From Morganella morganii (GTDB taxonomy: Bacteria; Pseudomonadota; Gammaproteobacteria; Enterobacterales; Enterobacteriaceae), in contig NZ_CP069157.1 of assembly GCF_019243775.1 (NCBI RefSeq), positions 1,798,001 through 1,862,000 of the forward strand: a DNA stretch of 64,000 bases, written 5' to 3'. A program made the position numbers and the translations under genes. Below the pieces are notes generated by a model. That model had not been told where the DNA came from and searched no databases. It saw only the letters and a program-made list of their open reading frames with translations. Positions 3,926 to 7,466 of the stretch are shown here, piece by piece. Each line of letters opens with the position of its first letter. Position 1 is the first letter of the stretch.

Positions 3926-3952
3926 AACGGAGTCGCTGATGGCTCCGTTTTT
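3926..3952 (+). terminator. Rho-independent terminator of fumC
   Basis: Arms AACGGAG (3926-3932) and CTCCGTT (3943-3949) form a stem extendable by two further pairs, followed by five T residues at 3948-3952. It sits between the convergent fumC and tus genes and overlaps the last codons of tus. Confidence 0.85.
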
Positions 3953-4874
3953 ACATTACTTCCATATATACATACAGTCGTGATATCACCGGAATTAATT
4001 TCTTTGCTTTCGGTCTGTGACGGATTTTGATGTTTTCCGCATCATAATCCGGTAGTACGCCTGTTACCGGTTTTTCCTCATTCTCATCACAAAATACAAT
4101 CAGCGGCGATGCACAGGCATACTGCACCTGCTTTTGCGCTTCGCTGTACCAGACTCTGGCGATTGGCTGTACTTTTACCGGTCGTTTGATTTTGAGTATG
4201 GCGTCTTCCGGCACCTGTTTTAAGGCGGAAATCTCTTTCGCCAGATAAACCTGCCGTTCTTCACGCGTCAGAGACTGAATGGCGCGCGGGTTCTGATATT
4301 GTTCTTCCAACTGAGATAACAATGTATCGCGATCCACCTTCTGAATAATATGTTTATTGGCCCAGCCAAACCGGACTGAGGAAGGGGAGGTGACTGACTG
4401 GATCTGCCGGTAGGCATTGAGTGTAATCAATCCTTTTATCTGATTGTGTACGAATTCAAAACGCTGTGTTTTGTCCACACCGGAGGTTTCTGTCACGATT
4501 GAGGCCAGTTGCTGTTTCAGCCTGTTAACCTCATTAAGCTGTTGCTGCATTATTTTTCGTTGTGCAGGGGAGAGTGTAATGAGCAGTACACCAGGCAACC
4601 GGATGGCAGATTTGCTGCTGATTTCCTGATCATTATCGAAGATAAACAAACGTTGATAGTGGGACAGCGCCAGGGAAACAGCATCTTCGCCACTGACCGG
4701 AATGACAGAAATGGTGTTGACGGTGTTATTTTCCTCTCCTTTCAGTATCTCAGGAAGTTGGTAAACCTCAGCAGTCCGGGAAGGGTGCAGCCGGATAGCT
4801 TTGCATAATGTATTCAGTGCCGATTCCAGCTGATTAAAGCAGTCGGTGAGAGAAATCATTGCATCGTATCGCAT
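3951..4874 (-). CDS. tus: Replication terminus site-binding protein Tus
   Basis: The 307-residue protein binds Ter DNA and arrests replication forks approaching from one side. Blocks shared with E. coli Tus (309 aa) are SLALSHYQRLFIF near 68-80, AIRLPGVLL near 91, GLITLNAYRQIQ, the strongly conserved RFGWANKHIIQK, and the core DNA-binding strand segment LKIKRPVKVQPIARVWY, then QKQVQYAC and LPDYDAENI. The N-terminus MRYD corresponds to MARYD of E. coli. A Ter sequence lies 8 bases upstream of the start codon, as with TerB and tus in E. coli, where bound Tus represses its own promoter; the same autoregulation is inferred here. The gene is divergent in sequence but all recognisable core strands are retained. 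Confidence 0.96.
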   Translation of the reverse strand: MRYDAMISLTDCFNQLESALNTLCKAIRLHPSRTAEVYQLPEILKGEENNTVNTISVIPVSGEDAVSLALSHYQRLFIFDNDQEISSKSAIRLPGVLLITLSPAQRKIMQQQLNEVNRLKQQLASIVTETSGVDKTQRFEFVHNQIKGLITLNAYRQIQSVTSPSSVRFGWANKHIIQKVDRDTLLSQLEEQYQNPRAIQSLTREERQVYLAKEISALKQVPEDAILKIKRPVKVQPIARVWYSEAQKQVQYACASPLIVFCDENEEKPVTGVLPDYDAENIKIRHRPKAKKLIPVISRLYVYMEVM

Positions 4875-4882
4875 ATATCGCC

Positions 4883-4905
4883 ATTTTAGTTACAACATAC
4901 AAAAG
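4883..4905 (-). promoter_or_regulatory. Ter replication fork arrest site upstream of tus
   Basis: On the minus strand positions 4900 to 4885 read GTATGTTGTAACTAAA, identical over 16 bases to the E. coli TerB core. The full 23-mer matches TerB at 18 positions. The G (position 6 of the 23-mer, base 4900), whose complementary cytosine is the one flipped into Tus in the E. coli complex, is present. By the known polarity, forks coming from the high-coordinate side should be blocked and forks from the low side should pass. The site overlaps the expected tus promoter. Confidence 0.95.
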
Positions 4906-4929
4906 TGTTTTTATCATATTAACTCAGCA

Positions 4930-5004: not shown

Positions 5005-5034
5005 CCGTTAACCCACAGCATCGTGGGTTAACGG
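5005..5034. repeat. Perfect 12-bp stem hairpin
   Basis: CCGTTAACCCAC (5005-5016) and GTGGGTTAACGG (5023-5034) are perfect complements around a six-base loop. It lies about 105 bases beyond the stop of the first small ORF on the minus strand. There is no T tract, so it could be a weak terminator, an mRNA 3'-end stabiliser or a repetitive extragenic element. Confidence 0.6.
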
Positions 5035-5139: not shown

Positions 5140-5295
5140 TTATATTTTGCTGCAATAAGCCTTAGTCTTTGGGCAGTTATCATAAACAGAGTGGATTTCT
5201 GCTGGTTCCCAAAGGTCTGGTGGTGTTTCATCTGCATTATGTTTTGGAAAACAGCTGTGAATCATAAGTGAGCTACTTAAAATAAGTGTCAGCAT
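5140..5295 (-). CDS. Small Cys-pair peptide 1 (51 aa), tandem family
   Basis: The ATG at 5295 is preceded by AAGGAG with a 5-base gap. The 51-residue product starts MLTLILSSSLMIHSCF and ends with a cysteine pair CPKTKAYC (residues 41-48) just before the C-terminus. The first 12 residues are hydrophobic and hydroxyl-rich but carry no Lys or Arg, so they are an atypical signal or membrane anchor. It is the longest of four same-strand ORFs that share the start M-[LI]-T-L-[IL]-L and a C-x6/7-C pair. I do not recognise the family. Reality is supported by the ribosome site and by paralogy to its three neighbours, not by any known homologue. Confidence 0.7.
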   Translation of the reverse strand: MLTLILSSSLMIHSCFPKHNADETPPDLWEPAEIHSVYDNCPKTKAYCSKI

Positions 5296-5366
5296 AAAGA
5301 CTCCTTAACATGATTCATAAAAGTAAGTTACTTGTGTATATCTGCCATCATTTAAGATCGATTTTT

Positions 5367-5474
5367 TTAATGGCCCCATATAACCGGGCAGTATTCCGGT
5401 GCAACAATATCACAAGACTCAAATGAATCCACTGATGAGAATAATAAGGTTCCGGTTAATAAAAGTGTCAGCAT
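5367..5474 (-). CDS. Small Cys-pair peptide 2 (35 aa), tandem family
   Basis: The ATG at 5474 follows GAGG with a 5-base spacer. The 35-residue product opens MLTLLLTGTLLFSSVDSF and contains CDIVAPEYC (residues 21-29), matching CDINYPESC in peptide 4 at Cys, Asp, Ile, Pro, Glu and Cys. The stop at 5367-5369 lies 71 bases before the start of peptide 1 on the same strand. The N-terminal 15 residues are hydrophobic and uncharged, suggesting membrane insertion or export, and the cysteine pair would fit a disulfide if exported. Function is unknown. Confidence 0.68.
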   Translation of the reverse strand: MLTLLLTGTLLFSSVDSFESCDIVAPEYCPVIWGH

Positions 5475-5525
5475 AGTTACCTCAGTTTATCAGGAATGAA
5501 TATATTATCTGCTGGGTATCAGATT

Positions 5526-5672
5526 TCAGCAAAATGGATTGGACAGCGAGCAGGTATTTTCCCGGTATATTATCAATTCTTTTTCAGGTTGTGGTGACTG
5601 CGTTAGTTTCGGGTCTCCGGGAGGAAAGATATCATATGTAAACAGGGAAGTGCTCAGTATCAGTGTCAGCAT
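5526..5672 (-). CDS. Small Cys-pair peptide 3 (48 aa), tandem family
   Basis: The ATG at 5672 follows GAGG with a 5-base spacer. The 48-residue product begins MLTLILSTSLFTYDIFPPG, has a charged Pro/Gln/Glu-rich middle, and ends in a cysteine pair CSLSNPFC (residues 41-48), with the last Cys being the C-terminal residue. The first ten residues are almost identical to those of peptide 1. It precedes peptide 2 by 51 bases, so peptides 3, 2 and 1 may share a transcript. A different frame on the plus strand is also open here, but it lacks a convincing ribosome site. Confidence 0.66.
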   Translation of the reverse strand: MLTLILSTSLFTYDIFPPGDPKLTQSPQPEKELIIYRENTCSLSNPFC

Positions 5673-5845
5673 ATTAACCTCGCATGCGTCTTTTGTGGTG
5701 AATGAGAGTGTGTCTGGCCTGATAACATTAACGTAAATCCTGCCTGGTGGTAATTAACTGGATTAGGTATTTTTCTTGTAAGATATATAAATACGTGATT
5801 ATTATTTTCGTTATTTTTATCAGATTTCTCAGCAGGTAATTAAAA

Positions 5846-5878
5846 AGCACCACCAATGAACTTTTCATTGGTGGTGCT
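5846..5878 (-). terminator. Strong intrinsic terminator after small peptide 4
   Basis: AGCACCACCAATGAA (5846-5860) and TTCATTGGTGGTGCT (5864-5878) form a perfect 15-bp stem with a three-base loop. On the minus strand it is followed by TTTTT, so it should end transcription of peptide 4 before peptide 3, implying separate promoters for the two units. Confidence 0.85.
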
Positions 5879-5956
5879 AAAAATATAAATAAATCAATAC
5901 AGGAAATTATAGATATGAAGATGCTAATACCATGGTGCTTGTTACGCAGTAAATAT

Positions 5957-6076
5957 TTACTCCGTTATTTCTGTTAATCCGACAGGCGGCCAGATATCAC
6001 AGGACTCAGGGTAATTAATATCACACTGATACAGATTGCTGAACACGAGTGTACTGCTCAATATAAGTGTTATCAT
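5957..6076 (-). CDS. Small Cys-pair peptide 4 (39 aa), tandem family
   Basis: The ATG at 6076 follows GAGG with a 4-base spacer. The 39-residue product begins MITLILSSTLVFSNLYQ and carries CDINYPESC at residues 18-26, which lines up with CDIVAPEYC of peptide 2. It is first in the array and is followed by a strong 15-bp-stem terminator about 80 bases downstream, so it is probably expressed as a single gene. Upstream sequence to 6212 is AT-rich, in keeping with a promoter, and then the ynfM stop is reached. No known homologue is recognised. Confidence 0.7.
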   Translation of the reverse strand: MITLILSSTLVFSNLYQCDINYPESCDIWPPVGLTEITE

Positions 6077-6212
6077 AAAACCTCACCGGATCAAGAACAT
6101 TTACTGTTGCGAAACATATGCAGATTACATATCTGTATGCTGACCGGCAATTAACCCGATGAGGTATTTTATATGACATAACTATTAATTACCTGACTGT
6201 ATTAGTTATGTA

Positions 6213-7466
6213 CTATGAGTGAGCGTGCTTATTCAGATACAGAGCAATCAGCACACCGGTTGCCAGCATAGCGGCAATAAACCAGCCGATGCCATTCCAG
6301 TGCCAGTAAGACCAGAAAACACCGCCCAGAGTACCGGCAATGCTGGAACCGCCGTAATAGCAAAACAGGTACAGTGAGGATGCCTGGGCTCTGGCGCGCC
6401 GGGCGCGGCGTCCGACCCAGCTGCTGGTGACGGAATGGGCGGCAAAAAATCCCGTCGTCAGTACCAGCATACCGATCAGAACTGCTGCCAGTGAACTACC
6501 GAGCGTAATGAGAATCCCGGTCAGCATTAATGTGACTGCACCAATCAGTACTCTGCCGTAGCCGTATTTCCGTGTCAGTGCGCCTGCTTTTGAGGCACTG
6601 TAAGTTCCTGACAGATAAACTATCGATAACATACCGACAACGGCCTGGCTGAAGTGATACGGCGGCTCCATCAGCCGGTAGCCGATATAGTTAAACAGGG
6701 TGACAAAGCTGCCCATAATGATAAAACCGATGGCAAACAGCCACGGCAGACCATCATCACGGCAGTGCAGGATCAGGTATTTCCACAAGCTTTTCGGTTT
6801 CAGTGAACTGGCTCTGAAATGGCGTGACGGCGGCAGTAACCGCCAGAACAGAAAAGCACCGAACAGAGAAAATGTTCCCAGTACCAGAACGGCAATCCGC
6901 CAACTGGCATAATCCGCAATAACGCCAGTGATCAGGCGTCCGCTCATCCCGCCGATAGAATTACCGCTGATATACAGCCCCATAGACAGGGCAACATAGC
7001 TGGGATGAATTTCCTCACTCAGATAGGTCATGGCCACGGCGGCGACGCCACTGAGAGATAATCCGACCAGGGAGCGGACAACCAGGATCCCCGCCCAGCT
7101 GGTGGTAAACGCACTGAGCAGGGTAAAGATTGCCGCGCATGTCAGGGATATCACCATAACATTTTTACGTCCGACCGCATCTGACAGCGGGCCGGTGATC
7201 AGCAGCCCGACGGCCATGAATCCGGTCGCCAGAGAAAGGGACAAACTGGCCTGCGCCGGTGATACCGAAAAATCGTCTGACAACAACGGCAGGATCGGCT
7301 GTACAAAATAGAGCAGAGCAAACGTCGCCAGACCGACCATAAAGAAAGAGAGAGTGACACGCAGATACAGTTTGTCGTCGCGCTGGATATAGTGCTGCTT
7401 TGCCTGATCATTCTGCACCGGTGAGGTCACACGGTTGTCAGTTATCAGTTTATTCTCGTCTGTCAT
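6213..7466 (-). CDS. ynfM: MFS transporter YnfM
   Basis: This 417-residue 12-helix major facilitator closely follows E. coli YnfM (417 aa). Matching blocks are TFALLYFVQPILPLLS near residue 42, GPLSDAVGRKNVMV near 96, SLVGLSLSGVAAVAMTYL, EEIHPSYVALSMGLYISGN and GSSIAGTLGGVFW. The cytoplasmic loop 2-3 motif GPLSDAVGRK is the usual MFS signature. The family is proposed to export sugars or drugs; the substrate is not known. It is divergent from the LysR gene ynfL with a 109-base shared promoter region, the same pair as in E. coli, so YnfL control is likely. Confidence 0.93.
   Translation of the reverse strand: MTDENKLITDNRVTSPVQNDQAKQHYIQRDDKLYLRVTLSFFMVGLATFALLYFVQPILPLLSDDFSVSPAQASLSLSLATGFMAVGLLITGPLSDAVGRKNVMVISLTCAAIFTLLSAFTTSWAGILVVRSLVGLSLSGVAAVAMTYLSEEIHPSYVALSMGLYISGNSIGGMSGRLITGVIADYASWRIAVLVLGTFSLFGAFLFWRLLPPSRHFRASSLKPKSLWKYLILHCRDDGLPWLFAIGFIIMGSFVTLFNYIGYRLMEPPYHFSQAVVGMLSIVYLSGTYSASKAGALTRKYGYGRVLIGAVTLMLTGILITLGSSLAAVLIGMLVLTTGFFAAHSVTSSWVGRRARRARAQASSLYLFCYYGGSSIAGTLGGVFWSYWHWNGIGWFIAAMLATGVLIALYLNKHAHS

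Follow-up and report, generated by a model that had tools for sequence, protein, structure and literature searches.

What do four short open reading frames (ORFs) encode that lie one behind another in the gap between tus and an MFS transporter gene of Morganella morganii, and what could their products do for the cell? Proteins of fewer than 50 residues often escape annotation, and tandem families of such genes are rarely traced across species. The window analysed here is a stretch of 64,000 nucleotides (contig NZ_CP069157.1, positions 1,798,001 to 1,862,000), from the first letter of which all coordinates below are counted. An earlier note, made from the letters alone, had described four minus-strand ORFs of 51, 35, 48 and 39 codons in the gap beside tus, and in our analysis their coordinates, lengths and sequences all match. 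We call them P1 to P4 and ask in turn whether they are genes, how they are related, how they might be expressed and by which mode of action their products might work.

Four open reading frames between tus and an MFS transporter gene

The array is bounded upstream by the MFS transporter gene (6213..7466) and downstream by tus (3951..4874), both on the minus strand like the ORFs themselves. P4 (5957..6076) encodes 39 residues with the loop CDINYPESC followed by DIWPP; P3 (5526..5672) encodes 48 residues with the C-terminal loop CSLSNPFC and has orthologues in the genomes G001 and G005; P2 (5367..5474) encodes 35 residues with the loop CDIVAPEYC followed by PVIW and is the type with the highest conservation; P1 (5140..5295) encodes 51 residues with the C-terminal loop CPKTKAYC. 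A C-x6/7-C pair is thus present in all four, as the note had said, and the further statement that each has exactly one pair of cysteines fails for P1, where residue 15 is a third cysteine. The sequence GAGG before P4 (6081..6084), P3 (5678..5681) and P2 (5480..5483), and AAGGAG before P1 (5301..5306), all on the minus strand, give every ATG a ribosome site at a distance of 4-5 nt, and the start motif M-[LI]-T-L-[IL]-L, also reported before, is found in all four peptides. The starts of P1, P2 and P4 are firm because their open frames comprise just 54, 39 and 41 codons; the open frame of P3, with 82 codons, is far longer than the ORF of 48.

The gap is AT-rich, with a GC content of 0.36-0.43 per 500-base step against 0.45-0.55 in the adjoining steps. 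We compared it with 2,000 dinucleotide shuffles of itself, on the coding strand alone: ORFs that start with ATG, span 35-60 codons and have a ribosome site numbered 4 in the gap against a mean of 0.08 and a maximum of 2 in the shuffles, and an ORF with both the start motif and a cysteine pair, a motif picked after the data were seen, occurred in 0 of the 2,000. The ORFs had also been thought too short for gene calling. In the gene table of NZ_CP070536.1, a sister strain with 97.5% identity, this is borne out for P2, P3 and P4, which have no feature in that table, incomplete as it is by design, and contradicted for P1, which is annotated as the hypothetical protein WP_155251728.1. That record (L021) is labelled as a 50.6-kb Morganella plasmid and carries the fumC-tus-MFS region, which is chromosomal in the genome of the window; it may be a mislabelled piece of the chromosome or an excised segment.

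Two further features of the gap were observed. Immediately upstream of tus, on the minus strand at 4885-4900, stands GTATGTTGTAACTAAA, which we take to be identical to the core of the Ter sites of Escherichia coli, and the same 16 bases are present in 18 of 20 MFS-tus gaps of Proteus. After P1, at 5005-5034, there is a perfect 12-bp inverted repeat, CCGTTAACCCAC/GTGGGTTAACGG, with no minus-strand T-run behind it, and G002 and G004 have similar repeats behind their own P1 copies.

A family with gain and loss in Morganella

The alignments bear out that the four peptides are paralogues, with a conserved N-terminus and a divergent C-terminus. P2 and P4 share, as had been noticed, the motif CDI-x2-PE-x-C followed by a tryptophan, while P1 and P3 have their cysteine loop at the C-terminus; in most of the C-x6/7-C loops a proline lies ahead of the second cysteine. 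Both loop types occur together in the P4 orthologue of G003, which reads CDLSLPEKC-DIW and also NCPNTRPHC and so joins the P2/P4 and the P1/P3 halves of the family. Compared with the peptides of the window, this orthologue gives E-values of 3.7e-9 for P4, 3.5e-7 for P1, 4.5e-5 for P2 and 0.012 for P3 (N-terminus only), values that hold for a set of just these four sequences and are helped by the common N-terminus. The note had recognised no described family, and in scans against Pfam and NCBIfam none of the four peptides has a match at E up to 10; a scan against PHROGs gave chance-level matches and nothing usable, and E. coli genomes contained no relative.

Conservation of the frames in related strains had been named as a test, and a profile search finds members in the tus-MFS gap of all six Morganella genomes, the best match outside that gap in these genomes reaching just E 0.036. 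Intact copies that start with ATG number 19: 4 in G000, 3 in G001, 2 in G002, 4 in G003, 4 in G004 and 2 in G005. This count leaves out a P4-type frame of G005, which begins with GTG and stays open over 39 codons, its ATG frame stopping early. The C-x6/7-C pair is present in 16 of the 19 copies, the exceptions being L023:2779-2922, L025:2461-2625 and L025:2822-2965. G002 has a decayed or broken copy of the P2 type and G005 one of the P1 type, and in G004 the remnant of a P2 type sits between two P1 copies. The genes of the array thus show turnover, with species-specific gain and loss.

As a separate observation, the peptide arrays of G001 and G005 (gaps L022 and L026) are bordered or invaded by repeat insertions of ~125 bp (by eye) that resemble ERIC elements.

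Purifying selection on the peptides

Substitution bias by codon position, another check named beforehand, gave an excess at third positions together with low dN/dS. Median dN/dS is 0.19 for P2 (7 of 10 pairs with a value) and 0.27 for P1 (15 pairs; 2 of the 12 listed among them have no value); one of the three P3 pairs yields a value, 0.21, and the P4 pair yields none. These values come from non-independent pairs, many of them with saturated dS, and the protein-level alignment used for gapped pairs favours a coding signal. A further type without the C-x6/7-C pair, PP in G002 and G004, has a dN/dS of 0.61 in its single pair and appears weakly constrained. Summed over non-independent pairs, the differences at the first, second and third codon positions number [90, 52, 154] for P2 and [265, 192, 318] for P1. 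In the ungapped P2 pair of the window and G004, 23 of 29 differences fall at third positions (P 5e-7), and in the P1 pair of the window and G004b 23 of 50 do so (P 0.04).

A comparison at closer range is given by M. morganii MM48659, to which the region of the window is 97.5% identical. All four peptides are identical between the two, and the ORFs carry 3 SNPs in 531 bases, all at third positions, against 21 in the 839 other bases, which reach into the flanking genes by a few bases (Fisher P 0.0096). By this pattern of substitution the four ORFs are real genes under purifying selection.

Two probable transcription units with a common upstream element

In the window P4 and P3 are each preceded by a 22-bp element, AAAATACCTCATMVGGTTAATT, which contains an ACC-N6-GGT dyad that is degenerate in some copies. 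The copy of the P4 unit, AAAATACCTCATCGGGTTAATT (6149..6170, minus strand), is a candidate activator site that overlaps the -35 box of a candidate promoter, whose -35 box TTGCCG (6145-6150) is separated by a 17-bp spacer from the -10 box TAATCT (6122..6127, minus strand). The second copy, AAAATACCTAATCCAGTTAATT (5752..5773, minus strand), lies upstream of P3, where the candidate boxes TTACCA (-35, 5748-5753) and TAATGT (-10, 5725..5730, minus strand) are again 17 bp apart. Between P4 and the other three genes there is an intrinsic terminator of 15 perfect pairs (5846..5878, minus strand); the note was right about its existence, and its placement at the end of P4 needs amending, as it begins 78 nt past the P4 stop. 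We infer from this arrangement that P4 is transcribed on its own and P3-P2-P1 together, with the 22-bp element at the head of both units.

When as many as 3 mismatches are allowed, the six Morganella genomes contain 12 matches to the element, 10 of them in the tus-MFS gap; the two outside have 3 mismatches each, the same number as the in-gap site of G003. Exactly 21 bp past the element, TANNNT is found at 10 of 10 sites, with a 17-bp spacer to a -35 box starting with TT, while TA at any of the 39 other offsets is found at 5 of 10 sites at most. Since the sites are related by descent, the TA at +21 is to be taken as conservation and not as independent proof, and the mean match to TATAAT is 3.6 of 6 at +21 vs 3.5 at +19. 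A stricter consensus promoter scan lists neither candidate promoter, and boxes as weak as these would be in keeping with promoters that need an activator. Folding of a single Morganella 5' region gave no structure (z +1.9).

G002 and G004 have lost the P4 gene; at the beginning of their gaps (L023 and L025) its upstream element and -10 box remain, together with a hairpin that looks by eye like a terminator.

A probable relative in Proteus

Of 20 Proteus genomes, 16 carry an intact gene of 44-56 codons in the same MFS-tus gap and on the same strand. Its product has a charged and, by eye, standard-looking signal sequence and a CPPTKPDC-like loop. The remaining loci comprise broken or decayed forms (L097, L101 and L066) and a short gap without the gene (L092). 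The genus was assigned from the 83% identity of the locus to P. mirabilis records and from the peptide of L105, which is found in P. mirabilis H110. M1, K5, S17, C26, P27, P31 and C33 are invariant in all 16 aligned peptides, the loop follows the pattern CP-x3-P-x-C, the C-terminal tails are variable, and the median dN/dS is 0.37 (120 pairs). The loss of copies in Morganella and Proteus alike suggests a conditional and not an essential role.

When the profile of the Morganella P1 type is compared with that of Proteus, DNCPKTKAYC aligns with KQCPPTKPDC, with E 3.6e-4 for this one comparison, a probability of 37% and 14 columns over the loop. In a genome search the Morganella profile does not detect the Proteus genes, in a comparison with small ORFs it gives L064 an E-value of 8.1, and the Proteus profile does not pick up the Morganella array. 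As neither profile detects the other genus and the loop match is short, the homology rests on place and motif, and on these the Proteus gene is likely a relative of the Morganella family. It is doubtful, and yet a possibility to be reckoned with, that the two are unrelated and arose separately in a permissive gap near the replication terminus: besides the mutual failure of the profiles, the N-termini of the two sets of peptides differ in charge and none of the 20 Proteus gaps contains the 22-bp element. Against such a separate origin both genera have the gene in the same gap, on the same strand and in the same size class, with a similar loop of the CP-x-x-K-P-x-C type.

The analysis covered 26 tus loci of other genera, the gaps of 8 of which were read in detail; a short ORF in this gap and on this strand was seen in those of a single genus, Proteus, and among the 26 the Proteus profile matches L064 and L067 only. 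In the wider family (295 and 290 sampled genomes) no further convincing locus was found with either profile, and in G025, where the MFS and tus genes adjoin as well, no such peptide was found. Several candidates were discarded. Matches of the Morganella profile in the Proteus genomes G111 and G302 are weak, are not near tus and seem to be due to chance: one frame is interrupted and lies opposite a long coding one, the other has 18 codons and begins MLTLILSLSL. A match of the Proteus profile in G061 (E 2.4e-6) is an 81-codon protein in which the signal sequence is alike and the loop absent. Among the weak matches of this profile, up to E 0.1 in 45 further genomes and at a second place in G061, L116, L119 and L123 were inspected and gave no convincing relative.

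Upstream of the gene in the Proteus loci L064 and L100 lies a hairpin that might occlude the ribosome site; the two natural sequences folded have an MFE of about -12 kcal/mol and z-scores of -2.4 and -2.6. It was set aside, as no clear covariation was seen by eye and some of the hairpin may belong to a promoter.

How the peptides may act

The best reading of these sequences is that they encode small exported peptides with a cystine loop, a new family that was duplicated in Morganella. In the reading that we prefer, to which we give a probability of roughly 0.55, the tandem microproteins would enter or cross the inner membrane, present a loop bridged by cysteines, be switched as two units by an activator and act in the way of MgrB. 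The hydrophobic N-terminus would take the peptide into or across the membrane, and the short C-x6/7-C loop, presumably closed by a disulfide, would be displayed in the periplasm or outside the cell; there the peptide might bind a partner in the membrane or envelope in the manner of MgrB and without homology to it. In each unit, P4 and P3-P2-P1, binding of an activator to the 22-bp element immediately ahead of the weak sigma-70 promoter would turn on transcription.

The suggestion of exported disulfide peptides had been made in the earlier note, and the Proteus genes of the same gap, with their signal sequence (by eye) and similar loop, point to export and to a disulfide loop. In Morganella itself export has to be inferred, since none of the 19 copies, with the ATG behind the ribosome site taken as the start, has a lysine or arginine before residue 18. 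A hydrophobic core is visible by eye as a short stretch, poor for a Sec signal or a membrane anchor, and A/S sites resembling those of signal peptidase can be made out by eye, chiefly in members of the P2 type. Only the P3 types of G001 and G005 have a second ATG in frame further upstream, from which the peptide would gain charged residues, and this ATG has no ribosome site of its own. Structure prediction, which had been named as a check on a disulfide hairpin, was uninformative, the AlphaFold models having mean pLDDT values of 56 and 58, below 60.

The main rival to the envelope-peptide reading is cell-to-cell signalling or competition, in which the released loops would signal between cells or hit competing bacteria, and the variability, copy number and loss would reflect contest or changing specificity. 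Such a role would suit the conserved N-terminus beside a divergent C-terminus, the broken and decayed copies in G002, G004, G005 and Proteus, and the variable Proteus tails. We nevertheless regard it as unlikely, for P2 is strongly conserved between species, which is ill-suited to an arms race, and the gap holds no other gene; moreover, viral contigs contained no relative, the one match in phages (E 9) is at chance level, and the sole match in plasmid records is the Morganella record with the whole chromosomal region. A wider version, improbable in our judgement, would unite both genera in an undescribed secreted system of cystine-bridged mini-peptides, the tandem, activator-controlled repertoire of Morganella serving as intercellular signals or antagonists behind an uncharged minimal signal sequence.

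The peptides could also stay in the cytosol or at the membrane face, where the cysteine pair would bind metal or respond to redox and the N-terminus would never cross the membrane. The lack of a positive charge in the first 17 residues of all 19 copies and the finding of signal-peptidase-like sites, by eye, mainly in the P2 type speak for this; the standard-looking signal sequences of the Proteus genes in the same gap speak against it, and we hold it to be distinctly unlikely. A type I toxin-antitoxin array, that is, small hydrophobic peptides repressed by antisense RNA, is highly improbable: it would account for the short hydrophobic N-termini, the tandem intergenic copies and the plus-strand promoter-like matches at 4889-4917 and 5776-5805, but such matches number 3 on both strands (2 of them on the plus strand) against 5.9 expected, the window has no Rfam match at gathering score, and selected C-terminal halves with cysteines do not fit a bare transmembrane toxin.

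Comparison with known systems

An Enterobacteriaceae microprotein catalogue, a preprint, deals with intergenic ORFs of 15-70 codons, as here, and has Proteus and Providencia among the genera analysed (PMC11188072). Unlike the present account of a Morganella tandem array, its main text is without the words 'Morganella' and 'tandem' (PMC11188072); single members may already be in its tables. Small unannotated envelope peptides are a known kind, and the family, its tandem expansion and the upstream element appear undescribed within the sources searched; a literature search found no description of this peptide family. With selection, paralogy, gain and loss and a common upstream element, the family is open to direct testing.

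Among arrays of small genes, a set of RiPP precursors was rejected, as the cluster contains no modification or transport enzymes and its neighbours are fumC, tus, the MFS transporter and a LysR regulator. The type I toxin loci ldr and ibs are tandemly repeated, and the Morganella array resembles them as a series of small hydrophobic ORFs in a gap; it differs in the conserved cysteine-bearing C-terminal half and in showing no excess of antisense promoter-like sites.

The closest likeness in form is to MgrB (PF13998), a small membrane protein of under 60 residues that inhibits PhoQ. MgrB has a positively charged N-terminus, then one transmembrane helix within its hydrophobic N-terminal part, and in its C-terminal part two periplasmic cysteines that form a disulfide. 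The Morganella peptides are alike in size, in the hydrophobic N-terminal part and in the C-terminal cysteines, which in 16 of 19 copies form an x6/7-spaced pair, read from sequence alone; they are unlike MgrB in that 0 of 19 copies have a positively charged N-terminus and in their tandem arrangement. Identity with MgrB was rejected, as none of the four window peptides matches PF13998 (E up to 10) and a genuine MgrB is encoded elsewhere in all six Morganella genomes.

The Proteus peptides of the CPPTKPDC type share with the Morganella family the gap, strand, size class and cysteine-proline loop, and differ from it in having at most one copy per gap (20 gaps) and a charged, signal-like N-terminus where the Morganella members are tandem and uncharged. 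A Sec signal has a positive n-region, a hydrophobic core and small residues at -3/-1. Measured against it, the Proteus peptides have K5 in 16 of 16, while those of Morganella have the core, by eye, and lack the positive n-region in 19 of 19; if the latter are exported with no positive charge in their first 17 residues, they would offer a probe of the minimum that a signal sequence requires.
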